Source: Gammaproteobacteria bacterium (GTDB lineage: Bacteria; Pseudomonadota; Gammaproteobacteria; 21-64-14). From it: a stretch of DNA of 64,000 nucleotides. Below, piece after piece: positions 33,544-63,444 of the stretch. Position numbers and translations under genes: made by a program. How positions within the stretch are numbered: position 1 is the first letter of the stretch; each line of letters starts with the position of its first letter. Under the pieces are notes generated by a model. That model did not search any database and was not told the origin of the DNA. It was given only the letters and a program-made list of their open reading frames with translations. Location: assembly GCA_027013145.1 (NCBI GenBank), contig JALUXX010000065.1:62001-126000 (forward strand). The letters are read 5' to 3'.

Positions 33544-33582
33544 CGTGGGAAGCCGGCCGCGGCCCGTCCGGCGGGTGCTCCC

Positions 33583-33690
33583 CGAAGGGAAAACGCAATT
33601 CCCGGCGCCGTCGGCGGGGCGGGCCCCGCCCTACCGGTACCCGGATCCGTGTAGGGGTGGGGTAGGGCCGGGCTTGCCCGGCCGGCGTCG
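33583..33690. repeat. direct repeat module A
   Basis: Begins CGAAGGGAAAACGCAAT and contains a GGGCGGGGC palindrome, the string CCCGGATCCGTGTAGGGG and a GGCCGGGCTTGCCCGGCC palindrome. Very similar to 33799-33908. Related strings recur, inverted, at 40.0-40.5 kb. Confidence 0.75.
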
Positions 33691-33717
33691 TGACCGGAGC
33701 CGACGTCGCAGGAAGAG

Positions 33718-33765
33718 GCCACGGAACCCACGGAATGAATGAAACCGGTCCGTGGATTCCGTGGC
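33718..33765. repeat. CCACGGAA-family hairpin repeat, copy 2
   Basis: GCCACGGAACCCACGGA (33718-33734) and TCCGTGGATTCCGTGGC (33749-33765) pair with one mismatch around a 14-base loop. It lies between the two direct repeat modules. Confidence 0.75.
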
Positions 33766-33798
33766 GCTTTCGTCTGTTTTCGAAGGTCTTCGCCGCGC

Positions 33799-33908
33799 CG
33801 AAGGGAAAACGCAATCCCCGGCGCCGTCGGCGGGGCGAGCCCCGCCCTACCGGTGCCCGGATCCGTGTAGGGGGTGGGGGTAGGGCCGGGCTTGCCCGGC
33901 CGACGTCG
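33799..33908. repeat. direct repeat module B
   Basis: Second copy of the module at 33583-33690, with the same order of CGAAGGGAAAACGCAAT, palindrome, GGATCCGTGTAGGGG and GGCCGGGCTTGCCCGGCC, differing at a few positions and small indels. Confidence 0.75.
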
Positions 33909-33962
33909 TCGATTGAACCGATGTCGTTTGGATGAGGCGCCGTCGGCGGGCCGAGGCCCGCC

Positions 33963-39963: not shown

Positions 39964-40113
39964 GGGCCAGTCCTCGCGCCGGCGGCGACCTCGGTCCGCC
40001 GACGACGCCCGACCCAAACGACGCCATTTCGATCGACGGCGTCGGCCGGGCAAGCCCGGCCCTACCCCCACCCCCTACGCGGATCCGGGCGCCGGTAGGG
40101 CGGGGCTCGCCCC

Positions 40114-40278
40114 GCCGACGCCGCCGCGGATTGCGATTTCCCTTCGGCGCGCCGGGGACCTTCGAAAACGGGTAAAGGCGCCACGGAATCCACGGACCGA
40201 TTGTATTCCTTCCGTGCGTTCCGTGGGTTCCGTGGCCTCTACCTGCGGCGTCGGCCGGGCAAGCCCGGCCCTACCCCC
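40114..40278. repeat. 165-base tandem repeat, unit 1
   Basis: Starts GCCGACGCCGCCGCGGATTG, includes the hairpin at 40180-40236 and ends after GCCGGGCAAGCCCGGC. Nearly identical to the next unit, with about half a dozen differences by eye. Confidence 0.8.
40180..40236. repeat. CCACGGAA-family hairpin repeat, copy 3
   Basis: GCCACGGAATCCACGGA (40180-40196) pairs with TCCGTGGGTTCCGTGGC (40220-40236), with one G-T wobble, around a 23-base loop. Confidence 0.75.
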
Positions 40279-40443
40279 GCCGACGCCGCCGCGGATTGCG
40301 ATTTCCCTTCGGCGCGGCGGGGACCTTCGAAAACGGGCAAAAGCGCCACGGAATCCACGGACCGATTGTATTCCTTCCGTGCGTTCCGTGGGTTCCGTGG
40401 CCTCTACCGGACGGCGTCGGCCGGGCAAGCCCGGCCCTACCCC
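40279..40443. repeat. 165-base tandem repeat, unit 2
   Basis: Second unit directly following unit 1 at an offset of 165 bases, with one extra base near its end. Confidence 0.8.
40345..40401. repeat. CCACGGAA-family hairpin repeat, copy 4
   Basis: Exact counterpart of the 40180-40236 hairpin inside the second tandem unit. Confidence 0.75.
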
Positions 40444-49401: not shown

Positions 49402-49797
49402 TCAGCCTCCCGGTCCGTAGCGGCGCACGGTGCGCAGGATGTTCAGCGTGAACAGCGCGATCGCAAGCCACGACAGCGCGCCCCCCGCCGCGACCAGCGC
49501 CACATCGGCCGCGAGCCAGCCCGCGGCCATCAGCCACAGGCCGAGGTTGGCGGTGTAGAGTTGCCAGTCGGCGATGCGCTCGGAGTACAGCGGGCGTCCC
49601 GAAAAGCGCGGCAGCACATGCAGGCCGACGCCGTAGATCATCATGGCGATGAAACCGAGCAGCATGATGTGCGCATGCAGCAGCGCGACGTCGCCCGGCA
49701 GCGGGGTCGGGTCGATGAGCCAGGCGATGCCGATGAGCCCGCCGAGCAGCCCGTAGATCAGGGCGAGGGTGATGAACAGCCGGTTGCGCCAGTGCAT
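49402..49797 (-). CDS. small oxidase-like four-helix membrane protein
   Basis: The 131-aa protein has four transmembrane helices. The second helix (LLHAHIMLLGFIAMMIYGVG) and following HVLPRFSGRPLYSERIADWQ resemble the C-terminal quarter of the oxidase subunit I at 58.6 kb (HYHGCIVAVTLAFMGMTYEL, LPRLGF...HWQ) and the membrane half of the thioredoxin fusion. It could hold a heme or metal through its His residues. It starts the minus-strand operon, divergent from dnr with 92 bases between the two starts. Confidence 0.78.
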   Translation of the reverse strand: MHWRNRLFITLALIYGLLGGLIGIAWLIDPTPLPGDVALLHAHIMLLGFIAMMIYGVGLHVLPRFSGRPLYSERIADWQLYTANLGLWLMAAGWLAADVALVAAGGALSWLAIALFTLNILRTVRRYGPGG

Positions 49798-49889: not shown

Positions 49890-50576
49890 ATGACCGAATC
49901 TTCCGATATCGACACCGAACTGCGCCGCGTCTATCTGTTCAATGCATTCGACGCGGGGCAGCTCGAACGCATACGGCGCGCGATGCGCGTGGTCCATGTG
50001 GACGGCGGAGAACGCCTGTTCGATCATGGGCAGAGCGCCGAGCGCTTCTTCCTCGTCCACCTCGGGAGCGTCAAGCTCTACCGTGTCTCCTTCGAAGGCG
50101 CGGAGAAGGTCATCGAGATCGTTCCTGCAGGTCACACCTTCGCCGAGGCGGTGATGTTCATGGAGCACCAGGTCTATCCGGTCAGCGCCGAGGCCCTGGA
50201 GCCGAGCATCCTGTACTCCTTCGACAACGAGGTCTTCCGGCAGTTGCTGCGCGACTCGGTGGATACCTGTTTCCGACTGCTGGGCGACATGAGCATGCGC
50301 CTGCACGCCCGGATCAACGAGATCAACGCGCTGACCTTGCAGAATGCGACCCTGCGTCTGGTCGGTTATCTCGTGCGCGAACTGGACGCCGGTGCCGGTG
50401 CCGGTACAGTGGAGTTGCCGGCGGCCAAGAGCGTTGTGGCGTCCCGTCTGTCCGTGCAGCCGGAGACGCTGTCGCGGATCTTCCACAACCTGGGTTCGTC
50501 CGGCATCATCCGCGTCAAGGGCAAGCAGATCGAGATCCTCGATGAGGCGCGGCTGCGCGAGCTGCTGCATTATTGA
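49890..50576 (+). CDS. dnr: Dnr-type Crp/FNR regulator
   Basis: The 228-aa protein closely follows the Dnr pattern: YLFNAFDAGQLERIRRAM, GHTFAEAVMFMEHQVYPVSA at 85-104, the long dimer helix RLHARINEINALTLQNATLR and a helix-turn-helix with SVQPETLSRIFHNLGSSGII. It has no N-terminal cysteine cluster, so it is not FNR; Dnr proteins sense NO through heme and bind TTGA-N6-TCAA boxes. It is surrounded by NnrS-like, hemerythrin and oxidase genes whose upstream regions carry such boxes, so it is the likely regulator of this region. Confidence 0.92.
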   Translation: MTESSDIDTELRRVYLFNAFDAGQLERIRRAMRVVHVDGGERLFDHGQSAERFFLVHLGSVKLYRVSFEGAEKVIEIVPAGHTFAEAVMFMEHQVYPVSAEALEPSILYSFDNEVFRQLLRDSVDTCFRLLGDMSMRLHARINEINALTLQNATLRLVGYLVRELDAGAGAGTVELPAAKSVVASRLSVQPETLSRIFHNLGSSGIIRVKGKQIEILDEARLRELLHY

Positions 50577-50745: not shown

Positions 50746-51084
50746 TCAGCCCGAACTCCAGGCGCGCGGGCGGCGCATCCCGGCGAGTTTGCAGGCCTGT
50801 TTGACGTACCCGTAGGGGAACAGCGTGAACAGGTAGCTGCGCGCGTCCGCCCCCTTTCCGAGATCTTCAGCGACGAACTTGATGACGAAGCGCGCGTCGG
50901 CGGCGATGCCGCTGCGCGTGTAGTAGTCGCGCATGAACTCGAACACCTTCCAGTGATCCTCGGTGAGTTCGATGTCCTCGCTCGCCGCAAGGGCGCGCGC
51001 GGTCTCCTCGTCCCAATCCTCAGGGTCGACGAGATAGCCTTCATCGTCCAGGTCGATCGAGCGTCCGGCGACTTGCAGATCCAT
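50746..51084 (-). CDS. DsrC/TusE-family protein without the C-terminal cysteine
   Basis: The 112-aa protein is a full DsrC-family member: DEGYLVDPEDWDEETARALA, the helix-turn-helix-like DHWKVFEFMRDYYTRSGIAA and the C-terminal arm FPYGYVKQACKLAGMRRPRA. DsrC uses two C-terminal cysteines for sulfur transfer; here C98 (CysB position) is present but the penultimate CysA is missing, as the protein ends WSSG. It therefore cannot form the usual trisulfide and is better seen as a regulatory or alternative DsrC-like protein. Two perfect FNR-type boxes precede it. ATG 51084 has AGGAGG at correct distance. Confidence 0.88.
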   Translation of the reverse strand: MDLQVAGRSIDLDDEGYLVDPEDWDEETARALAASEDIELTEDHWKVFEFMRDYYTRSGIAADARFVIKFVAEDLGKGADARSYLFTLFPYGYVKQACKLAGMRRPRAWSSG

Positions 51085-51179
51085 AAGCATCCTCCTCATC
51101 GGCGGGACCCCGCAACGGGGTTCCGCGGCATCGGCTTGCGACACCGTCAATGGATAGCAGGTGCATGGGCGGCACGTAA

Positions 51180-52356: not shown

Positions 52357-53604
52357 TCAGCCGGGCTTGCCGTCCACCCGGCGGCGCAGATAGAGCGGAG
52401 CGTAGCGCAGGACCCAGGCGCCGAGAAACAGGAGCCATGCGAGCGCCGCCAGTACGTTCAAGGCCAGGCCGCCGGGGCGCGCCCCCGGCGCGATTGCCCC
52501 GGCGATGCGCACCAGGGCGGTGAGGCCGACGCCCCAGAAACAGATCCAGGTGAAGGTGTCGGCGGTCAGCGCGCGCCCGGAGTGCCCCAACGTCACGCGT
52601 GTGGCCATTGCCACGACCAGGCCGGTCAGGAACCCGATGCCGAGCGCGTGCAGGGGCGCGAGGCCGAGGACCATGCGCCCCGTCTCCCACAGCCAGAACC
52701 CCTGGACGGTGTAGAGTGCAAGCGCCACGGGGCACCACGCGAAGGCAACATGCAGGACTGCCAGCAGCCGCACACGGAAACTGCGCAACAGTTCCCAGTG
52801 CCGGCTGTGGTTCGCGGCGAGCGCGAAGAATACGAGGTCCGCCGGCCACGTCCAGCGGTGCAGCCCCGCCGCCGCCAGTGCACCGTGGGCGAAGCTGCAC
52901 CCGAGCATCGCCAGCAGCGCACGGCGTGGCTGGTAGACGGTGTACGGGCGCAGCACGACGTTGCTGAAGTAGGGGATCATGCGGTGGGCGACGGTCACCG
53001 CGACCGGCACGAGGAACCACCACAGGCCCGCCTCGCGCGCGAAGCGCAGCATCCCGACGCGGCCGTCGAAGACCCACAGGACATAGGCCGCCATGCCGGC
53101 GGCGCCGGCCACGAGCGCGGCGTTCAGCAACCGCTCGTAGAACTTGTCCCGCGCCGGCGCCGCGGCGAACACCTGCAGCAGTGCGTGGAGCGCCGTCACC
53201 CAGCCCGCGAGGTAGAGCGCCGCACCGGCCCCGAGCAGGGTGCGCGCGGAGAACAGGCCCGCATAGAAGAGCGCGAGCCCCCCCGTGAGCAGCAGGAAGC
53301 TGCGCACGTAGCGCCGGCGCGGGATCGCCTCGCCGTTCATCCAGCGCGGATAGGTCGTCATGAGGAAACCGAGGAAGAACAGCGGGAACAGCCCGTAGAC
53401 CATCAGGAAGAGGTGCGCGAACGCGGCGGGGATCTGCGTGCGCGGCGCCGGCATCATTCCGTAGCGGGCGGCCAGTTCCACGCCCCAGAAGAGGAGGGCG
53501 GCGACCATCTGCAGCGCGCCGGCGAGAAACATCATCCGGTGCGGTGCGGCGGTGAAGACCGGTGCGCGTGCGGGTGTGCCCGCTTGTCCGGCGCGGCCCT
53601 CCAT
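52357..53604 (-). CDS. nnrS: NnrS family protein
   Basis: NnrS is a heme- and copper-containing membrane protein linked to tolerance of NO and related stress. The 415-aa protein has twelve transmembrane helices and NnrS hallmarks: FAHLFLMVYGLFPLFFLGFL and MTTYPRWMNGE near residues 46-75, and later LHALGIGFLTGLVVAMATRV followed by LGHSGR. It lies downstream of the cytochrome b-diflavin gene on the same strand and is probably part of one transcript with the CopD-like and SirB2-like genes. Confidence 0.88.
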   Translation of the reverse strand: MEGRAGQAGTPARAPVFTAAPHRMMFLAGALQMVAALLFWGVELAARYGMMPAPRTQIPAAFAHLFLMVYGLFPLFFLGFLMTTYPRWMNGEAIPRRRYVRSFLLLTGGLALFYAGLFSARTLLGAGAALYLAGWVTALHALLQVFAAAPARDKFYERLLNAALVAGAAGMAAYVLWVFDGRVGMLRFAREAGLWWFLVPVAVTVAHRMIPYFSNVVLRPYTVYQPRRALLAMLGCSFAHGALAAAGLHRWTWPADLVFFALAANHSRHWELLRSFRVRLLAVLHVAFAWCPVALALYTVQGFWLWETGRMVLGLAPLHALGIGFLTGLVVAMATRVTLGHSGRALTADTFTWICFWGVGLTALVRIAGAIAPGARPGGLALNVLAALAWLLFLGAWVLRYAPLYLRRRVDGKPG

Positions 53605-53670: not shown

Positions 53671-56211
53671 TCAATAGACATTGCGGCGATATCGTCCGGC
53701 ATGTATGAGCTCCGACACGTAATCTTCGGCTTGCGCGATCGTACACGATCGGGCCGCGGCGATCAGTTCGACCACCACGCGGTCCACCGCCCGGCCCATC
53801 GCCTCGGCGCCGCAGACATACAGGACGGCGCCCTCCTCGAGCCAGGCATAGACTTCGCTACCGTACTCGCGCAGGCGGTGCTGTATATAGACCTTGTGCG
53901 CCTGATCGCGGGAGAAGGCGGTAACGAGCCGGGTGAGGCGCCCCTGCTTCAGCCAGCGCTCCCAGTCCTCCCCGTAAAGGAAGTCCGTACTGCGGTGGCG
54001 GTCTCCGAAGAACAGCCAGTTGCGCCCCGCGGCGCCGAGTGCCTCGCGCTCCTGCAGGAAGGCGCGAAAGGGGGCCACTCCGCACCCGGCGGTCACCATG
54101 ATTATCGCCTGGTCGGGGTCCTGCGGCAGGTGGAAATCCGGATTGCTCTCGACCGCGAGGGGGACGGCCTCGCCGAGGGGGAGGCGGTCGACAAGAAAGG
54201 TCGAGGCGATGCCCACCCGATCGCGTCCGTGGCACCGGTAGCGGACCGGGACGACCGTCAGGTGCAGCTCTCCCGGGCAGGCGAGGAGGCTGGAGGCGAT
54301 GGAATAGCGCCGCGCCGGCAGCGGCCGCAGGGTGTCCACGAAATCCTGTGCGCGCAAAGCGTCTGCGGGGTGGTCGCGGACGATATCGGCGATCTGCCGG
54401 CAATGCGCCCAGGCCTCGAAGGCGGCGGCCCCGTCGCGATCCAGCACCTTCCGCAGAGCCGGCGAGTGGGTGAGTTCGGCGTAACGCTCGAGAAAAGGGC
54501 GCGTCGGGCGGGTGATCTCGTAGCGGCGCGCGAGCGCCTGCGCCAGCGGCATCTCCCCGTAGCGGGTACGCACGCGGGCCGCCGCATCCAGGCGCGTCTG
54601 CGCGAGCAGCTCTTCCACCAGCGGGGCGGGGTTCGTGGGGATGACGGAAACTGTGTCGCCCGGGGCGTACTTGATGTCGGTTCCGGTGACATCGAGGCGC
54701 AAGTGCCACACCTCGCGGGTCGATCCCGGTCCGGTGAGCTCGGACCTCCCGATGAGCGTCGCGGCGGGCGCGGCGGGTCGGGCCGGCGCCCTCGTCCCAC
54801 CGCCCGCGGGCACCGGGGTCCGCGGCGGAGACGGCGCGCTGCCCGTTGCGACGGCGGCGAGCACCGACTCCACCCAGTGCGCCGCGGTCTGCTCGTAGTC
54901 GAGGTCGCAGTCGACCCGGGGATGGATCCGCGCGGCGCCAGCGGCCGCCAGGGCGGCATCGAAGTCTTTGCCGGCTTGGCAGAACTTCGGATGGCTGGCG
55001 TCGCCGAGCGCCAGCACGGCGTAGCACACGCCGTGCAGGTCGGGGGGGCGGGGACCGGTGAGCAGGGCATGCAGATCGCGGGCGCTGTCGGGCGGCTCCC
55101 CGTCCCCATGGGTGCTGATGATGATGAGCAGCACTGGTTCCCGGGGCAGGCGCACCGGCGGGTAGGTGCGCATGTCCTGGAGGTCGGCATCGATGCCCAG
55201 GGTCCGCGCCCTGGCCGTCAGGTCTCGCGCCACCCCCGCGGCGTGCCCGGTCTCGGAACCGAACAGCACGGTCATGCGCAACGCGCCGGCGGGTGCCGCC
55301 ACGCCTGGCAGGGGCGAGGGGGCTTCCGTCCCTGTCCCGGCCTTCCGCCGCGGCAGCCATGGGAGGAGGCAGAGGAGGAGGGTGGAGGCGAAGAGGAGGG
55401 TCCAGACGAAGGCCGGGGGGGTGTGGCCGGCGAGGGGGTAGATGGAGAGGTAGAACCAGTCGAGGTGCAGGGTGGTGGGGGCGGAGGCGAGGTTGGCGGG
55501 GCCCTGGCTGTGAGCGGGGTGCAGGAGTGCGAGTGCGAGCAGTGCCAGGAGGGTGCCGACGGCGAGGGGGCGCGGGGGATTGATCACGGGGCGGCTGATG
55601 CGCTGGAGGTGGAGCCAGATGAAGCCTGCCAGCAGCAGGGGCAGGCTGAGGAAGTGGAGGAAGGCGAGCAGGGTGAAGAAGCGGTCGCTGAGGCTGTCGG
55701 GGGTGAGGAAGTTTCGGGCGATGGGGGCGGCGAAGACGGGGAGGCGGTCGAGCAGTTCGGTGGTGAGGACGGCCAGGTACTGGGCGAGGCGGTCCCAGAC
55801 CAGCCAGTAGCCGGTGATCCCCAGGATCGCCACCAGCCACAGCGTGGGCACCCCGGTGAGCCAGGAGAACCGGTGCGCGCCGCGAAAGTGATCGTAGGCG
55901 AAATGGCGGATCAGGTGCAGGGTGAGGGTGATCACCGCGGCGTCGGCGGCATAGCGGTGCAGGCTGCGCAGGACGCCGCCGAGGTACCACTGCTGGCGGG
56001 TGAGGTATTCGACGGAGGCGTAGGCGCCGTGGACGCTGGTGTGGTAGAAGACGTAGAGGTAGATGCCGGTGACGAGGACGATCCAGAAGAAGAAGATGGT
56101 CAGGGCGCCGAGGTAGTGGAAGGGATTGGCCGCGGCGCCGAAGGCGGCGTCCATCCATGCCTCCAGCGGTGCCAGCCCGTGTCGCACCGTCGACTGCAGC
56201 CACCGCAGCAC
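53671..56211 (-). CDS. cytochrome b fused to a CysJ-like diflavin (FMN/FAD/NADPH) reductase
   Basis: The 846-aa protein has a cytochrome b domain (1-288) with heme ligand pairs H85/H99 and H186/H201 and extra helices at about 217-232 and 265-285. A short linker leads to a flavodoxin domain (about 313-450; GSETGHA 318-324, STHGDGE 366-372, LGDASHPKFC 402-411) and a sulfite-reductase-flavoprotein-type FAD/NADP domain (about 485-846; RRYSIASS 634-641, AGCGVAPFRAF 708-718, terminal Tyr 846). This would move electrons between NADPH and membrane quinone or a partner oxidase. The start is GTG. Residues 1-288 look identical to the second cytochrome b fusion. It is followed by nnrS. Confidence 0.9.
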   Translation of the reverse strand: MLRWLQSTVRHGLAPLEAWMDAAFGAAANPFHYLGALTIFFFWIVLVTGIYLYVFYHTSVHGAYASVEYLTRQQWYLGGVLRSLHRYAADAAVITLTLHLIRHFAYDHFRGAHRFSWLTGVPTLWLVAILGITGYWLVWDRLAQYLAVLTTELLDRLPVFAAPIARNFLTPDSLSDRFFTLLAFLHFLSLPLLLAGFIWLHLQRISRPVINPPRPLAVGTLLALLALALLHPAHSQGPANLASAPTTLHLDWFYLSIYPLAGHTPPAFVWTLLFASTLLLCLLPWLPRRKAGTGTEAPSPLPGVAAPAGALRMTVLFGSETGHAAGVARDLTARARTLGIDADLQDMRTYPPVRLPREPVLLIIISTHGDGEPPDSARDLHALLTGPRPPDLHGVCYAVLALGDASHPKFCQAGKDFDAALAAAGAARIHPRVDCDLDYEQTAAHWVESVLAAVATGSAPSPPRTPVPAGGGTRAPARPAAPAATLIGRSELTGPGSTREVWHLRLDVTGTDIKYAPGDTVSVIPTNPAPLVEELLAQTRLDAAARVRTRYGEMPLAQALARRYEITRPTRPFLERYAELTHSPALRKVLDRDGAAAFEAWAHCRQIADIVRDHPADALRAQDFVDTLRPLPARRYSIASSLLACPGELHLTVVPVRYRCHGRDRVGIASTFLVDRLPLGEAVPLAVESNPDFHLPQDPDQAIIMVTAGCGVAPFRAFLQEREALGAAGRNWLFFGDRHRSTDFLYGEDWERWLKQGRLTRLVTAFSRDQAHKVYIQHRLREYGSEVYAWLEEGAVLYVCGAEAMGRAVDRVVVELIAAARSCTIAQAEDYVSELIHAGRYRRNVY

Positions 56212-56220
56212 CGCCCGCCC
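55348..56220. repeat. 873-base direct repeat, copy 1 (cytochrome b segment)
   Basis: This segment, from 9 bases before the start codon to codon 288 of the diflavin fusion, recurs at 61372-62244 at a constant offset of 6024 bases with no difference that I could find. The borders are sharp: outside them the sequences differ at once. Confidence 0.92.
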
Positions 56221-56272
56221 CCGCTATCCGATAACCGAGCGAAACGCTAGGCTAAACCTCGCCGCCGGGGCC

Positions 56273-56286
56273 ATGATGCAGATCAA
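56273..56286 (-). promoter_or_regulatory. FNR/DNR-type box upstream of the cytochrome b-diflavin gene
   Basis: On the minus strand it reads TTGATCTGCATCAT, one mismatch to TTGA-N6-TCAA. It is centred 68 bases before the GTG start. The identical 14-mer precedes the other cytochrome b fusion at the same distance. Confidence 0.6.
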
Positions 56287-56328
56287 GCCGCCGGTTGCGG
56301 CGGGCCCTGCGGCTGCGTCGGGCGTGGC

Positions 56329-57048
56329 TCAGCCGGCCGCGGGGGCGGTGCCCGGGAGTGGCGCCCGCGCGGGGCACGGGCAGGCCCCGGCGGAGGCGCG
56401 CACGGAGGGGCGCCGCTCGCGGGGGGGCGCAAGGGTCCGGGGCGCACCCGCCAGCAAACGTTCGAGATCACGGGCGATCGCGTCCGCGCCCTCCCGGCCG
56501 GTCATCAGCAGCCGGGCGCGCCCGCGCCTGTCGAAGACATAGATCCCGGCGCTGTGGTAGACGGCGTAGTCGCCGTTCTGGTCGCGCCTTCCGTAGCGGT
56601 AGGAGACCCGGTAGCGTTTGGTGAGGGCCTGCAGCTGGGGCTGCGTACCGGTCAGGCCGACGATGTGTGCTCCGAACGCGGCGACGTAGGCATGTAGGAT
56701 CTTGGGTCCGTCGCGCGACGGATCGACGCTGACGAAGAGCAGTCGTACCCCGTCGGCTGCGGGGCCCAGTCTCGCGAATGCGCGCTCGATCGTCGCCAGC
56801 GTGAGCGGGCAGACGTCGGGGCAGTGCGTGTATCCGAAATAGAGCAGGTTGACCTTTCCCAGGTAGCGCTCCGCCGTTACCGTCCGACCTTCATCGTCAA
56901 CGAGGGTGAACCGGAGGTCCGGCATGACACCTGTGATGTCCATGCTCTTCCAATGCGTGCCGCCGCCCCCGCAGGCGACCAGTAGCGCTGCCGCGGCCGG
57001 ACCCAGGGCCCGGCGGAGCGCGGCGAACGAGTGGCGAATGCCGTGCAT
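56329..57048 (-). CDS. SCO1/SenC copper chaperone lipoprotein
   Basis: Sco proteins deliver copper to oxidases. The 239-aa protein has a lipobox (LLVAC, Cys26) for membrane anchoring, then the thioredoxin-like SCO domain with the copper motif GYTHCPDVCPLTLA and the distal His ligand in YHSAGIYVFD. The C-terminal tail (about 205-239) is Arg/Ala/Pro rich and has an unusual C-P-C pair. It is downstream of CtaG and PCu(A)C, so all three form the copper-delivery part of the oxidase cluster. Confidence 0.92.
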   Translation of the reverse strand: MHGIRHSFAALRRALGPAAAALLVACGGGGTHWKSMDITGVMPDLRFTLVDDEGRTVTAERYLGKVNLLYFGYTHCPDVCPLTLATIERAFARLGPAADGVRLLFVSVDPSRDGPKILHAYVAAFGAHIVGLTGTQPQLQALTKRYRVSYRYGRRDQNGDYAVYHSAGIYVFDRRGRARLLMTGREGADAIARDLERLLAGAPRTLAPPRERRPSVRASAGACPCPARAPLPGTAPAAG

Positions 57049-57196
57049 TAGACGTCCCCCGGGATGCCGCTACCCGCCGGGTCAGACGCTGCCGGCCGGG
57101 CGCGGCGGCCGGCGGCGGGTCCCGGCGGTCGGTGAGCCCCCGCGGCGCCCCCCCGCGTGTCTGAAAATGTACGCCCTCCCGGGCCGACGGCGCCGT

Positions 57197-58117
57197 TCAC
57201 GGGTCTTGCGCCCCGCCCGGAATCCCGGGCTGCGGAGATGAAACGGGTCCGGGCGCCTGATGCCCGGGTCCGCCGGTGTCCGCATCCGCCCGTGTCGCCT
57301 TCCGTGCGGATTCGTCGCCCAGCATCCGGTGGAAGATCGTGAGCACGGCGGCTATGCAGGTGAGGGCGGCGAGGAACCCGACCATCCCTCCCAGTTTCTG
57401 GTCCGTCATCGGGTTCAGGGGCCAGAGGCGGCCGCACACCGCATAGATCGGGTAGAGATTGCCGACGCTCAGGCCGATGGCGGCGCTTACGGCGCCCTGC
57501 GAGGCGATCACTGCAAACAAGGCGGCGATGCGGGATCCATAACCCAACACCCCGTTGCGGCGCGGTGATCGCGGATCCAGGATCAGGCCCCAGAAGATCA
57601 GGCCGCTGATCAGCATGCTCCAGTTCATCACGGCGTAGAGGGGGGCGCTGAGCATCGCGTAGGAGTGGACCGGGGGAATGACCCACAGCACCACCAGGCC
57701 CGCGAAGAAGGCGACCGCGATCACGGGGTCGAGCAGGACGTGCCGAACCAGACGCAGCGGCGGGACATCCCCCAGGGGGGGGCGGTGCCGCGTGAAGTGT
57801 TGCGGCAGGGCGGCTGCGAGTACGCGGCCCGGCGCCGCGGCCGTGACGAGGATCGGTGCCAGATAGTGGAGGACGAACTGCTGCAGGCGGTGGAGGAAAA
57901 ACATGTGCTGCGCCCAGTAATCGAAGCGCGTCTGCAGCACCGCGTAGATCAGCAGGATGGCGGTGAGGTAGGCGAGCCTGCGCCACGCGCCCGGTACGGG
58001 GCCGCTCCGTGCGCACCGTACCAGTCCGAACCCGTACCAACCGGCGGCCAGCAGACTGGCGAGCAACACCGCGGGGGAGAACTCGTACGGTGTCAGGAAC
58101 CATTGGAGCGAGGACAT
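57197..58117 (-). CDS. CtaG-type cytochrome c oxidase assembly protein
   Basis: The 306-aa protein belongs to the caa3_CtaG membrane family of copper-delivery factors. It has seven transmembrane helices with RFDYWAQHMFFLHRLQQFVL and HYLAPILV near residues 63-92, a family-typical His-rich segment, and LYPIYAVCGRLWPLNPMTDQ near 225. The C-terminal 40 residues are a polar tail. It lies between PCu(A)C (26 bases upstream) and Sco; the 148 bases before Sco hold no gene. Confidence 0.9.
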   Translation of the reverse strand: MSSLQWFLTPYEFSPAVLLASLLAAGWYGFGLVRCARSGPVPGAWRRLAYLTAILLIYAVLQTRFDYWAQHMFFLHRLQQFVLHYLAPILVTAAAPGRVLAAALPQHFTRHRPPLGDVPPLRLVRHVLLDPVIAVAFFAGLVVLWVIPPVHSYAMLSAPLYAVMNWSMLISGLIFWGLILDPRSPRRNGVLGYGSRIAALFAVIASQGAVSAAIGLSVGNLYPIYAVCGRLWPLNPMTDQKLGGMVGFLAALTCIAAVLTIFHRMLGDESARKATRADADTGGPGHQAPGPVSSPQPGIPGGAQDP

Positions 58118-58143
58118 GGGCGGGCGGTCTCATCGGTGGACCA

Positions 58144-58611
58144 TCAATCTCCGGACAGGGTACCGGCCCCCTTGACGAGGAAAGAGGCCGAAGTCCGCGA
58201 CCCGTCCCGGAACCGGAACGTGAGCCGTGTGCGGGTGTCGGGTCGGAGCGGCGTGTGCGGCGGCATCAACATGATGTGGTAGCCGCCGGGGGCGAAGCGA
58301 AAGCGCCAGCCGGCCGGAATCACGACGCGAGCGACGGGGACCGTTTTTTCCAGCCCGTCTCTGGTCACGCTCCGGTGCAGCATCGCGGCGCGAAACACGG
58401 GTGCGTGCACGGCGGTCAGGCCCTGGGGTCGGCCGGAGTCGTTCGCAACGACACAGTACGCGGAGGCGGGGAAGTCGCCCGGCAGGATCCCAATCCAGGC
58501 ATGCGCGACGACGACCCCGCCGGCGTGCGCAGGCCCGGCCAGCAGCAGCGCGGCGAGGACGACGGCGCGCCGGAATCTCGTGGCTGCCTCCCGCGTGCGG
58601 CCGATGGACAT
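58144..58611 (-). CDS. PCu(A)C periplasmic copper chaperone
   Basis: The 155-aa protein has a signal peptide (about 14-30) and the PCu(A)C domain with the Cu(I)-binding set: Met and His in RAAMLHRS and His-x-Met in GGYHIMLMPP, in the usual spacing. It would hand copper to Sco or directly to the CuA/CuB site of oxidases. It follows the oxidase gene by 27 bases. Confidence 0.9.
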   Translation of the reverse strand: MSIGRTREAATRFRRAVVLAALLLAGPAHAGGVVVAHAWIGILPGDFPASAYCVVANDSGRPQGLTAVHAPVFRAAMLHRSVTRDGLEKTVPVARVVIPAGWRFRFAPGGYHIMLMPPHTPLRPDTRTRLTFRFRDGSRTSASFLVKGAGTLSGD

Positions 58612-58638
58612 GGGCGTCTCCGCTCCCGCCGCCCGTGC

Positions 58639-60135
58639 TCAGTGCGCCTTCAGGTCGGGCACGGGCGCACCAGGTGAGCGCGGCTGCGCGCCGGATGCGT
58701 GCGCGGGAGACCTCGGCCGGTGGAGCGCGGCGAAGCAGACGACCAGGAACAGGATGCCGCCGGCCACCGCCACCAAGCCGCCCACGCCCATCAGGCCCAT
58801 GGCGGCATTCTCCTGCCACCCGTGGAGCCCCTGGGCGGCGCCGGCGACCTTGCGCGAGACGCCGTAGCCGCCCGCCCAGGCGAGTCCCGCGATGTGGAGG
58901 AGTTCACCGCCGCCGTAGAGATAGGGCTGCCAGTGCGCGGCACGGGGAGTGGGGGTGCGGAAGCCCAGGCGCGGCAGCAGTTCGTAGGTCATGCCCATGA
59001 ACGCCAGCGTCACCGCCACGATGCAGCCGTGATAATGGGCGGGCACAGTGACGTTGTTGCCGTGGATGAGCAGGCCGAGGATTCCGCCGACCCCGAACAG
59101 CAGCACGGAGCTGAGCAACGCGGCGCGCTGGGGGGCGCCAAGCAGCGGGGCCGCGGCGGCGGTGGCGACGCCGTAGAGCACGGCGAGGGCGATGGGGACC
59201 GCGGCCAGGCTGCCGCCGAACGCCATCAGCCACAGGAAGAAGCGGTGGAACTGCACGGATGCGGGGCTGTACGCCAAGTAGGCAACCGGCGTCAGGAACA
59301 CCCACAGCAGACCCCATGCGAACAGCGCCAACACCACCCGCGGGCTCAGAGGAAGGCGCACGCGGCCGCCCGCTGCGAGCCAAAGCCATGCCACGAGCAT
59401 GAGCTGCGTATGGGTGTACTGCAGCACGTGTCCGCCGCCCCAGAAGAGCTGTTCGAAGTACGCTCTCCCGAGGAGGTCCGGCGGCGTGGACAGGTAACTC
59501 AGGGCGAACGCAAGCAGCGCGATCGCCGCGGCGATCGCCGCCGTGTTGATGCCGAAGCGCAGTGCCCCGGCGCCGCTTGCGAGCACACCGATCGGTTGTG
59601 CACAGCACAGCGACAATGCAACCTGAATTGCGACACCCGCGGCGAAGAGGATCAGTCCCGACAGGAACAGCGGATCCTGCAGCACCGGCACATAGTTGCT
59701 CATCAGGGGCTGCGCGGCGCCCAGGAAGGGTGAGCCCGCCATGATCAGTGTGCCCGCCGTCGCCACGGCGAGGGCGGCCCAGCCCCATGATCGGCCGCGG
59801 CGTACCGGGTTGAGGCTCCAGAACACGCCGGCGAAGGCCAGGAACCAGACCAGGACCGACAGGTCCACATGCACCACCAGCGCCGTGTGGAAGAAATCGA
59901 TCCAGGGGAAATGGCGGTCGAGGTAGGGGGTGCGCGAGAGGACCAACAGGATAGCGAACACGCCGGCACCGACGAGCGAGCCCAGGCCCAGCAGCAGCCA
60001 GCCGACGGCGAGCCGCCGCGGCACCCCCGCGGGAACCGGCAGCGAGAAGGCCGCTACGGGGTCCCCATGGACCGTGCCTACTTCATCCGCTGCGCCGGCC
60101 GGGTGGCGGTCGTTGCGCGTCGCTACAGTCGTCAT
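58639..60135 (-). CDS. heme-copper oxidase superfamily subunit I, divergent CuB site
   Basis: The 498-aa protein has twelve transmembrane helices. Probable ligands are H89 (low-spin heme, in VVHVDLSVLVW), H236 and Tyr240 (GGGHVLQYTH, compare HPEVY), and H367/H369 (VPAHYHG). Where canonical oxidases have a tandem His-His for CuB, this protein has H297-R298 (VQFHRFFLW), so one CuB ligand seems missing. It may be a NO reductase-like or unusual oxidase. The start ATG has GGGGGAGA. It sits between a 167-aa unknown protein and the copper chaperones. Confidence 0.86.
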   Translation of the reverse strand: MTTVATRNDRHPAGAADEVGTVHGDPVAAFSLPVPAGVPRRLAVGWLLLGLGSLVGAGVFAILLVLSRTPYLDRHFPWIDFFHTALVVHVDLSVLVWFLAFAGVFWSLNPVRRGRSWGWAALAVATAGTLIMAGSPFLGAAQPLMSNYVPVLQDPLFLSGLILFAAGVAIQVALSLCCAQPIGVLASGAGALRFGINTAAIAAAIALLAFALSYLSTPPDLLGRAYFEQLFWGGGHVLQYTHTQLMLVAWLWLAAGGRVRLPLSPRVVLALFAWGLLWVFLTPVAYLAYSPASVQFHRFFLWLMAFGGSLAAVPIALAVLYGVATAAAAPLLGAPQRAALLSSVLLFGVGGILGLLIHGNNVTVPAHYHGCIVAVTLAFMGMTYELLPRLGFRTPTPRAAHWQPYLYGGGELLHIAGLAWAGGYGVSRKVAGAAQGLHGWQENAAMGLMGVGGLVAVAGGILFLVVCFAALHRPRSPAHASGAQPRSPGAPVPDLKAH

Positions 60136-60152
60136 TGCGATCTCCCCCCTGA

Positions 60153-60656
60153 TTACCTGAAGACGAACACACCGTGGCGCGAGCTGAACTCGATCACGAA
60201 TACCTGCGCGGGGCGCAGCGTGATCTCCATCGCGCGCGCGCGCGCGGGCGCGGCCCGCGGCCCGTCGTCCCAGAGGCTCACCTGCAGGCGGTGGCGGCCG
60301 GCTGGCACGACGAAACGCGCGTAGATGTAGGAGAGGCCGTCGTGATGGAGGCCGGCGGGGGCGCGGGTCCGGTCGTAGAGCAGACGCCCGTCGAGGCGCA
60401 GCGCGACCCGCACGGGGTAGCGCCGGCGCGGACAGACGACCGGGACGCGGTCGTACTCGGGGAGGGCGGCGAGTTCGGCGGGCGTGCGCCGGCGGCACTT
60501 GCCGACATGCCGCCCGTACTGGTCCACGCTCAGTTTGATCACGGCGCGATCCGGCTGTAGATAGGTGTAGGCGGGGCGTTCGGAAAAAAAGCCGAGCGCG
60601 GTGGCGAAGGCCGCGTAGGCAAGGACCTGCAGCGAACCGCGCACCATCCTAGCCAT
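60153..60656 (-). CDS. hypothetical single-helix protein of the oxidase cluster
   Basis: The 167-aa protein has one N-terminal hydrophobic segment (about 8-26) and then a soluble, Arg-rich beta domain with two cysteines (C54, C75). The segment PVRVALRLDGRLLYDRTRAP and the later FVVPAGRHRLQVSLWDDGP suggest a periplasmic beta-sandwich. I do not recognise a family. It overlaps the end of the cytochrome b-ferredoxin gene by 8 bases and is 17 bases upstream of the oxidase gene, so it is probably a subunit or assembly factor of that complex. Confidence 0.68.
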   Translation of the reverse strand: MARMVRGSLQVLAYAAFATALGFFSERPAYTYLQPDRAVIKLSVDQYGRHVGKCRRRTPAELAALPEYDRVPVVCPRRRYPVRVALRLDGRLLYDRTRAPAGLHHDGLSYIYARFVVPAGRHRLQVSLWDDGPRAAPARARAMEITLRPAQVFVIEFSSRHGVFVFR

Positions 60657-62235
60657 GTCCGCCGCCTCCGCGTGCCGCGGCTTCGAGCCCGGCGCCGGCT
60701 GCGGTGCGGAGGGTGGCCGATCGCAACCGGCGGCGCAGGCGTTCCACGGCTGCCGCGACGCGTGCCTCTTCGCCGGCCGCAGCCCAGATCAGGGCGATGC
60801 GCTCGCGCGGGACGTTCGGGCGCAGGTAGGGTGCGCGGCGTCGCGCGAGCCGTTCCTCCACCCAGCGGTTCCCGAGCCGGTAGTTGCACTCGCCGGCCGC
60901 ACACCCGGTGATCACGATCCCCTCGGCGCGCCGCCGGCGCAGCAGGTACTCGATGAAGGACGGCGGCAGCATCGCGCTGCACGGCAGGGTCAGGACGGCG
61001 ACGTCCGCCGATCGCAGCGCCTCCACGCGCGCCGCATAGCGGCAGCCGAAGACCATGATGCGTACCGGCGCGCGGAGTGCCGCCAGGCGTTGCCCGGTGA
61101 CGGTCCGCACGCGATCAATCGTGAAGTCGGGCAGGTCGATCCCGCTCACCAGTTCCTCCACGCGGCGGAACGGCGTCGAGGAGGGGCACGCCCCGGCGCA
61201 GATCCCGCAGGCCGCGCACAGGGCCGGATTCACCACCGCGATCTTCCCGCGCGGTTTGCCGGCGGCCGGGCGCGGCGCCAGGGTGATCGCATTGAACGGA
61301 CAGTCGTCGACGCAGCGCCCGCAGCCGTTGCACCAGCGCGGCGTGACCACGGCTGCGGGCGCGTGAGCGGCCCGCGGCAGCCATGGGAGGAGGCAGAGGA
61401 GGAGGGTGGAGGCGAAGAGGAGGGTCCAGACGAAGGCCGGGGGGGTGTGGCCGGCGAGGGGGTAGATGGAGAGGTAGAACCAGTCGAGGTGCAGGGTGGT
61501 GGGGGCGGAGGCGAGGTTGGCGGGGCCCTGGCTGTGAGCGGGGTGCAGGAGTGCGAGTGCGAGCAGTGCCAGGAGGGTGCCGACGGCGAGGGGGCGCGGG
61601 GGATTGATCACGGGGCGGCTGATGCGCTGGAGGTGGAGCCAGATGAAGCCTGCCAGCAGCAGGGGCAGGCTGAGGAAGTGGAGGAAGGCGAGCAGGGTGA
61701 AGAAGCGGTCGCTGAGGCTGTCGGGGGTGAGGAAGTTTCGGGCGATGGGGGCGGCGAAGACGGGGAGGCGGTCGAGCAGTTCGGTGGTGAGGACGGCCAG
61801 GTACTGGGCGAGGCGGTCCCAGACCAGCCAGTAGCCGGTGATCCCCAGGATCGCCACCAGCCACAGCGTGGGCACCCCGGTGAGCCAGGAGAACCGGTGC
61901 GCGCCGCGAAAGTGATCGTAGGCGAAATGGCGGATCAGGTGCAGGGTGAGGGTGATCACCGCGGCGTCGGCGGCATAGCGGTGCAGGCTGCGCAGGACGC
62001 CGCCGAGGTACCACTGCTGGCGGGTGAGGTATTCGACGGAGGCGTAGGCGCCGTGGACGCTGGTGTGGTAGAAGACGTAGAGGTAGATGCCGGTGACGAG
62101 GACGATCCAGAAGAAGAAGATGGTCAGGGCGCCGAGGTAGTGGAAGGGATTGGCCGCGGCGCCGAAGGCGGCGTCCATCCATGCCTCCAGCGGTGCCAGC
62201 CCGTGTCGCACCGTCGACTGCAGCCACCGCAGCAC
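60649..62235 (-). CDS. cytochrome b fused to 2x4Fe-4S ferredoxin and MvhD-like domain
   Basis: The 528-aa protein starts with the same cytochrome b domain as the diflavin fusion (1-288; H85/H99, H186/H201). It continues with a bacterial ferredoxin domain (C302, C305, C308, C312 and C340, C343, C346, C350) and an MvhD-like domain (about 390-465) with C398, C419, C445 and C450; MvhD normally has a CxxC at the first site, here C-R-Y-A. MvhD proteins connect hydrogenases or dehydrogenases to heterodisulfide reductase. A route between quinone and Fe-S or thiol carriers is likely. The start is GTG, with an FNR-type box 67 bases upstream. Confidence 0.9.
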   Translation of the reverse strand: MLRWLQSTVRHGLAPLEAWMDAAFGAAANPFHYLGALTIFFFWIVLVTGIYLYVFYHTSVHGAYASVEYLTRQQWYLGGVLRSLHRYAADAAVITLTLHLIRHFAYDHFRGAHRFSWLTGVPTLWLVAILGITGYWLVWDRLAQYLAVLTTELLDRLPVFAAPIARNFLTPDSLSDRFFTLLAFLHFLSLPLLLAGFIWLHLQRISRPVINPPRPLAVGTLLALLALALLHPAHSQGPANLASAPTTLHLDWFYLSIYPLAGHTPPAFVWTLLFASTLLLCLLPWLPRAAHAPAAVVTPRWCNGCGRCVDDCPFNAITLAPRPAAGKPRGKIAVVNPALCAACGICAGACPSSTPFRRVEELVSGIDLPDFTIDRVRTVTGQRLAALRAPVRIMVFGCRYAARVEALRSADVAVLTLPCSAMLPPSFIEYLLRRRRAEGIVITGCAAGECNYRLGNRWVEERLARRRAPYLRPNVPRERIALIWAAAGEEARVAAAVERLRRRLRSATLRTAAGAGLEAAARGGGGHG

Positions 62236-62244
62236 CGCCCGCCC
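61372..62244. repeat. 873-base direct repeat, copy 2 (cytochrome b segment)
   Basis: Counterpart of 55348-56220. It ends 9 bases before the start codon; the adjacent 5' sequences then differ until the shared box at 62296-62309. Confidence 0.92.
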
Positions 62245-62295
62245 TCTGCGCAATAGATCTGGGGAGACGGTAGGTCCCGCGCCGCCGTCGCGGCC

Positions 62296-62309
62296 ATGAT
62301 GCAGATCAA
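62296..62309 (-). promoter_or_regulatory. FNR/DNR-type box upstream of the cytochrome b-ferredoxin gene
   Basis: Minus-strand TTGATCTGCATCAT, identical to the box at 56273-56286 and at the same distance (centre 67 bases) from the start codon. The bases between box and gene are different in the two copies. Confidence 0.6.
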
Positions 62310-62529
62310 GCGCCCCGGCGAGCGCCTGCGCCGGGGCGATCGCGGAGCGGGGGTGCAAGGGGATGCTGCCGCACGCCCCATGCAGGCGCGCCCGAACGAT
62401 CCCGCCCGGGGCGTGCGCCGGAGCCGGGAACGCGGCGAAGGACGGCACCGGTCGCTGCATGCTGCTCTCCCCCGCCGCCGCGCGGCGGCGGTGCCCGGCC
62501 CGCCCTCCCGGTCCCCCGGGCCCCGCCGC

Positions 62530-63444
62530 CTATCCGTTCAGGGCGGCGCTGGCGATGACCCCCGTGAGTAGCAGGCCGAGTTGGATCAAGGAGGCATGGA
62601 AGTTCGCCACCGCGGCGGCGGGGGTGGGATTGCGTATCAGCCGCACGCTCCCGGCGAGGAAGTACGCGCCGCCGAGGACCGCCGTCGCCAGATAGACCCT
62701 GCCCATGCCGAAGAGGGCGGGCAGCAGCGTCGCTGCGACGAGCACCACGGTATTGCCGAGCACCACGCGGGCGGTCGCGTCGACCCCCCGGACCACGGGC
62801 AGCATCGGTACGGCGGCCGCCGCGTAGTCCCGGCGCAGGGCGATGGCCAGGCTCCAGAAATGCGACGGCGTCCACAGCAGCAGGATCCCGGCCAGCAGCC
62901 AGGCGGCGATCCCCGGGTGTGGGCCGGCGGCCGTCGCACCGGCGAGCACGGCGAAGCTCCCCGCGAGCCCGCCGACGACGATGTTCCAGTGGGTTCGCCT
63001 CTTGAGCCAGAGCGTATAGACGACGCCGTAAGTGAAGGCGCCAAGGAACACGAACAGAGCCGTCACCGTGTTGGTCGTCGCCGCGGCGAGACCGACGGCC
63101 CCCAGAAGCAGTGCGGAAAAAAACACCGGCCACCCCCATCCGTGTCCGAACTCCCCCGTGGCGAAGGGCCGCCTGCGGGTGCGCTCCATGCGCGCGTCCA
63201 GGTCCCGTTCGAGGTACTGGTTGAAGGCGCCGGCGGCGCCGGAGGCGAGCAGGACCGCGACGAACAGCACCGAGGCGCGGCGTGGGTCGGGGCTCGCGCC
63301 GGCGGCCGCCGCGAAGCCGGCGAGGGCCGTATAGGCGATCGCCAAGCCGATGCGCGGCTTGAACAGACCGATGAACTGGCCCACCCGCGTGTGCGCCGGC
63401 GCGTTGGTGACGGGCACGGCCCTTGCGGCGTCCGCTGGCTTCAT
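62530..63444 (-). CDS. ctaB: protoheme IX farnesyltransferase (heme O synthase)
   Basis: CtaB/CyoE adds a farnesyl group to heme b to make heme O. The 304-aa UbiA-family membrane protein has the first Asp-rich motif NQYLERDLDARMERTRRRP (about 75-93) and the second region YTLWLKRRTHWNIVVGG (about 143-159), with nine helices. Its presence implies that at least one oxidase of this cluster carries heme O or A. It lies between the partial oxidase gene (78 bases upstream) and the cytochrome b-ferredoxin gene (285 bases downstream). Confidence 0.94.
   Translation of the reverse strand: MKPADAARAVPVTNAPAHTRVGQFIGLFKPRIGLAIAYTALAGFAAAAGASPDPRRASVLFVAVLLASGAAGAFNQYLERDLDARMERTRRRPFATGEFGHGWGWPVFFSALLLGAVGLAAATTNTVTALFVFLGAFTYGVVYTLWLKRRTHWNIVVGGLAGSFAVLAGATAAGPHPGIAAWLLAGILLLWTPSHFWSLAIALRRDYAAAAVPMLPVVRGVDATARVVLGNTVVLVAATLLPALFGMGRVYLATAVLGGAYFLAGSVRLIRNPTPAAAVANFHASLIQLGLLLTGVIASAALNG

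Follow-up and report, generated by a model that had tools for sequence, protein, structure and literature searches.

In the window analysed here, 64,000 nucleotides of contig JALUXX010000065.1 of a gammaproteobacterial genome (GCA_027013145.1), two genes on the minus strand place the same membrane domain in front of different soluble redox modules. Gene A (53671..56211, minus strand) encodes a fusion of cytochrome b with a CysJ-type diflavin module, 846 residues long from a GTG start that is fixed by an in-frame TAG immediately 5' of it. Pfam recognises Cytochrome_B at residues 29-205, Flavodoxin_1 at 315-444, FAD_binding_1 at 484-672 and NAD_binding_1 at 705-810; the TIGR01931 profile spans the entire diflavin part (548 bits) and PDB entry 6efv matches residues 310-846. 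With CysJ, the sulfite reductase flavoprotein, A thus shares a complete FMN-FAD-NADPH module, but its N-terminus is a membrane cytochrome b instead and its score stays below the curated cut-off of this CysJ equivalog (668 bits). The genome has no CysI partner, the best candidate being a partial match of 22 bits, and A is its sole CysJ-like gene; assimilatory sulfite reduction is hence an unlikely job for A. An AlphaFold model of A alone was unusable (pLDDT 43). Downstream of A lies a gene for NnrS (52357..53604, minus strand; PF05940, 205 bits).

Gene B (60649..62235, minus strand) encodes cytochrome b followed by a ferredoxin with two [4Fe-4S] clusters and an FlpD/MvhD domain, as seen from domain matches and conserved ligands. 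It is 528 residues long when read from the same GTG as A, which is its likely start, whereas the ORF prediction places an ATG upstream at 62460. The FlpD/MvhD domain scores 45.2 bits against a Pfam gathering score of 22.3, and the NCBIfam HdrA2 profile matches the tail with 76 bits. Among 136 aligned sequences the eight cysteines of the two [4Fe-4S] motifs are all 100% conserved and the four of the FlpD domain that follows are conserved at 97-100%. This is the arrangement of MvhD/VhuD/FlpD and of HdrA2-type ferredoxin-FlpD tails, but in B it is joined to a cytochrome b, it comes without the HdrA flavin domain, and neither HdrBC nor a hydrogenase was seen adjoining. The part shared by A and B is a shortened cytochrome b whose heme histidine pairs, H85/H99 and H186/H201, are 100% conserved in the same 136 sequences. 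An invariant DW pair, part of a DW(F/Y) motif, stands close to where the Qo region has its PEWY. In the AlphaFold model of B (pLDDT 83) the fold matches cytochrome b of bc1 and b6f complexes. The likeness to cytochrome b6 and to the N-terminal cytochrome b of these complexes covers the four histidines, the DW(F/Y) motif and the fold, but the A/B domain is shortened and fused to soluble redox modules, and neither protein has a Rieske or a cytochrome c1/f domain.

Compared base by base, positions 55348..56220 and 61372..62244 (both minus strand; offset 6024) show 0 mismatches over 873 bp, as the sequence-only reading of this locus had claimed. Each copy consists of 864 coding base pairs, i.e. 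codons 1-288 of A or B, and the 9 bp 5' of the GTG starts at 56211 and 62235. A DNA search of the whole genome found the segment in these two places and no third. With no change at about 230 synonymous sites, the 95% upper bound on the synonymous divergence of the two copies is about 1.3%. The nearest outside homologs of the cytochrome b part are only about 65% identical to B in protein, a comparison to which A contributes no ortholog. The same reading held that the fused halves are unrelated, and diflavin in A against ferredoxin-FlpD in B agrees with this; together with the absence of any difference in 873 bp, it supports the proposal of a recent duplication or conversion of a membrane half carrying different redox tails. 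Third codon positions are richer in G and C in the shared segment (GC3 of 0.94) than in the tails (0.88-0.89). This is no signal of biased conversion, since the trend recurs in other fusions and 9-10 of 41 GC-rich homologs differ even more.

The claim of sharp borders stands in part. On both sides of the 873-bp blocks the base-by-base comparison meets dissimilar sequence at once, but the promoter side is not free of likeness. The FNR/DNR-type box TTGATCTGCATCAT lies 75 bp before the GTG of A (56273..56286, minus strand) and 74 bp before that of B (62296..62309, minus strand), an exact match of 14 bp. This sequence occurs exactly twice in the genome, whose other FNR-type boxes differ in the middle bases. 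The spacer of A (56221..56272, minus strand) can be aligned with positions 62245-62295 upstream of B, yet the two have diverged: 37 of 45 aligned bases match and gaps are needed. Relative to GC-matched fragments, this similarity has a P of 0.0005-0.003 over six scoring schemes, i.e. about 0.001. FNR-type boxes with at most one mismatch precede 30 of 133 homologs where 1.2 are expected, and a perfect box stands at -73 before a differently tailed cytochrome b fusion in another genome (G083, Fer2 type). Hence the likeness of the promoters, some 50 bp long, may owe something to selection acting on promoters that depend on FNR.

The surroundings of B suggest where this gene belongs. At B-type loci the gene order is kept: heme-copper subunit I, CtaB, cytochrome b-FlpD, a small protein and often a second heme-copper-like gene. 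Here, a CtaB-like protoheme farnesyltransferase (62530..63444, minus strand) was recognised from its sequence, not by HMM, and the genes of subunits I and II are located at about 63.5 kb and past the end of the window (locus L042). Subunit I is ba3-like, with GHSSQQ where ba3 has GHPIVY, and subunit II is of the CuA type. In the alignment a Gln stands opposite the cross-linked Tyr of ba3 in subunit I of L042; inspection by eye for this residue was confined to L042, L054 and L055. The described enzyme eNOR is a heme-copper NO reductase in which Gln takes the place of that Tyr (PMC8756737). The operon next to B resembles it in its subunit I with Gln and its CuA-type subunit II but differs in having B and the small protein as additional members. 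In our literature search neither this membership nor a link between cytochrome b-FlpD proteins and NO reductases was found, save for a table entry in PMC8756737. By gene order and signature residues, B belongs to an eNOR-like operon, for which we predict control by FNR and a role in NO reduction.

The small protein (60153..60656, minus strand) has no Pfam match, is co-conserved with B and is fused to the C-terminus of B at five loci (L040, L054, L056, L059 and L101). Adjoining B in many genomes is also a second heme-copper-oxidase-like protein with a weak COX1 match (58639..60498, minus strand), its true start probably being inside the ORF. This protein is divergent, carries a GGGHVLQ motif, scores barely above the COX1 cut-off and stands beside eNOR-like operons in many genomes; searches of NCBIfam and PDB sequences gave no match. 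The two copies further enclose SCO1 (56329-57048) and CtaG (57197-58117), both identified by domain matches, and a PCuAC-like ORF recognised from its sequence (58144-58611), all on the minus strand. Elsewhere in the window, a DsrC/TusE-family protein (50746-51150) and a short NnrS/COX1-like membrane protein (49402-49797) lie near a Crp/Fnr-type regulator (49890-50576), and imperfect repeats of 81-238 nt, 87-95% identical and both direct and inverted, are dispersed at 33582-33956 and 39989-40408.

Relatives were gathered by a profile search of genome contigs, a single-sequence scan having given no matches. About 9% of the genomes sampled, at class and at phylum level alike, have cytochrome b homologs. 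Among the 141 domains collected, 136 have an FlpD tail, three have a third type of tail, one (L060) is cut at the start of the ferredoxin and one is A itself. The third type, cytochrome b followed by Fer2, FAD and NAD domains, was seen in three genomes (G083, G715 and G341; loci L037, L038 and L172), that of G341 being assigned by resemblance only as it is cut by a contig end. The B-type fusion is thus present at more than 100 proteobacterial loci. The A-type fusion was found in none of the approximately 138 other cytochrome b homologs searched, the tail of A had no match in the loci of relatives, plasmids gave CysJ matches only, covering 63% of A, with no cytochrome b-diflavin fusion, and our literature search found no paper on such a fusion. 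The identities of the cytochrome b part and of the tail of B to its relatives are strongly correlated (r = 0.93, B itself and duplicate loci included), as expected if B is a native gene. The prevalence of FlpD tails, the conserved gene order around B and the eNOR signature of subunit I all indicate, from comparison of sequences, that B is the old gene and A the derived one. The cytochrome b gene is absent from the only other genome of the order; in the sister genome G001, which has no cytochrome b homolog, matches were confined to the region of the second heme-copper gene.

If gene conversion continually homogenised such copies, other genomes with two of them should hold close pairs. We compared eight: Thioalkalivibrio denitrificans, G083, G341, G715 and four genomes of family f207, none of which has a diflavin pair. 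In T. denitrificans two tandem cytochrome b-FlpD genes (L055, 9809-13752) are 55% identical; the cytochrome b pairs are 46% identical in G341 and 55% in G083, so that directly compared pairs span 46-55%. The tree unites the Fer2-type copies, which come from three families, with an SH-aLRT of 98 and a long-branch warning, and separates them from the FlpD copies that these genomes also carry; in the four f207 genomes, the tandem FlpD copies cluster according to position. In none of the eight genomes do the two copies form a close pair: they sort with copies of their own tail type or position, or take no resolved place. The tree therefore rules out genome-wide concerted evolution as a general rule, and the suggestion of continuing conversion found no support as a general feature of these genes. 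As the diflavin pair was found here only, these comparisons are compatible with conversion in the present genome alone.

How, then, did A and B come to share 873 identical base pairs? We give a probability of about one half to an older duplication of promoter and cytochrome b part, followed at a later time by gene conversion that reset the coding sequence. The promoter and cytochrome b part of B would have been duplicated about 6 kb away in this lineage and fused there, in frame, with a diflavin module of CysJ type to yield A. The two promoters would then have drifted apart until homologous gene conversion replaced one of the cytochrome b copies with the other, probably that of A with that of B; we infer this order and direction from the pattern of identity. 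If the promoters are of common descent, the 0 differences in 873 coding positions next to a diverged spacer need such a reset (Fisher P<1e-10), and it is this contrast, identical coding DNA between diverged promoters, that makes late conversion preferable to plain duplication. Conversion would have been confined to the shared domain, as nothing outside it matches. Yet gene conversion normally requires fairly similar partners, and the copy in A must then have stayed close to that of B beforehand, which counts against it, as do the absence of the A/B pair from close relatives and the lack of homogenisation in the other two-copy genomes. Should the similarity of the promoters come from selection only, a single recent duplication is enough: a copy of the 873-bp coding segment of B, and of nothing else, would have entered the start of a diflavin gene with an FNR-type promoter already in place, and the identity would reflect its recent date, with no gene conversion. 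This is quite plausible, though we would not wager on it. It accounts simply for the lack of differences and for the sharp borders on both sides, and it fits with an A-type fusion found nowhere else we searched and with the lack of homogenisation in other two-copy genomes. But it leaves to coincidence or convergent selection that A and B have the same exact box, variable middle bases included, at a spacing equal within 1 bp and followed by similar spacers.

The identity might also be an artefact, by a collapsed or wrongly copied repeat or by polishing, which may have removed a small number of true differences between the copies. The assembly, with 67 contigs and no 16S match, is probably a short-read metagenome-assembled genome, and an exact direct repeat of 873 bp within one contig is hard for short reads. 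However, the contig is linear, the repeats are flanked and separated by unique sequence, and this order requires two passages through the repeat. Moreover, the junction in A is in frame inside a complete reading frame of 846 residues, A carries its own matching promoter box, and the neighbourhood of B agrees with that of its relatives. Hence we find an artefact unlikely. In a stronger form of the reading we favour, and compatible with it, concerted evolution would have gone on for long because selection demands that the membrane halves be identical, e.g. for mixed dimers of A and B. In its favour, the cytochrome b of bc1 and b6f complexes is dimeric, and identical coding sequence adjoins diverged promoters. 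But the pattern is seen in one genome, and eight others with two copies lack it, which makes long-term homogenisation very improbable.

Duplication followed by conversion within one domain has a precedent. In methanogens, mtrA-1 and mtrA-2 are paralogs whose one common domain is homogenised by gene conversion (PMC4632066), and like A and B they share one domain and differ in the fused parts. There, however, the pattern is seen in many species with conserved synteny, whereas A and B come from one genome, and the other pairs of copies in eight two-copy genomes show no recurrence of homogenisation. We regard the A/B pair as an uncommon, new case of a process already known, not as a new kind of system.

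The presence of the third tail type in three other genomes supports the earlier idea of a modular design, one quinone gate with two soluble outlets, and extends it to several outlets. A and B would have the same di-heme membrane part, predicted to react with quinone. A would pass electrons from NADPH through FAD, FMN and the hemes b to quinone; B would link the quinone pool to a putative low-potential iron-sulfur partner through its two [4Fe-4S] clusters and the FlpD cluster. Judging by the FNR boxes, the eNOR-like operon and NnrS, both proteins probably function when oxygen is low or NO is present. One might speculate that the membrane half is held identical by selection to allow mixed dimers of A and B to join the NADPH pool, an iron-sulfur pool and quinone in one complex beside the predicted NO reductase, but we regard this as a long shot. 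At this locus a membrane redox module seems to have been caught in reuse with a new electron-donor half, its copies being still identical. Together, A, the widespread B-type fusion and the third, Fer2-flavin type point to a little-described family of electron-transfer proteins, linked to quinone and to NO reduction, that is directly amenable to experimental test.
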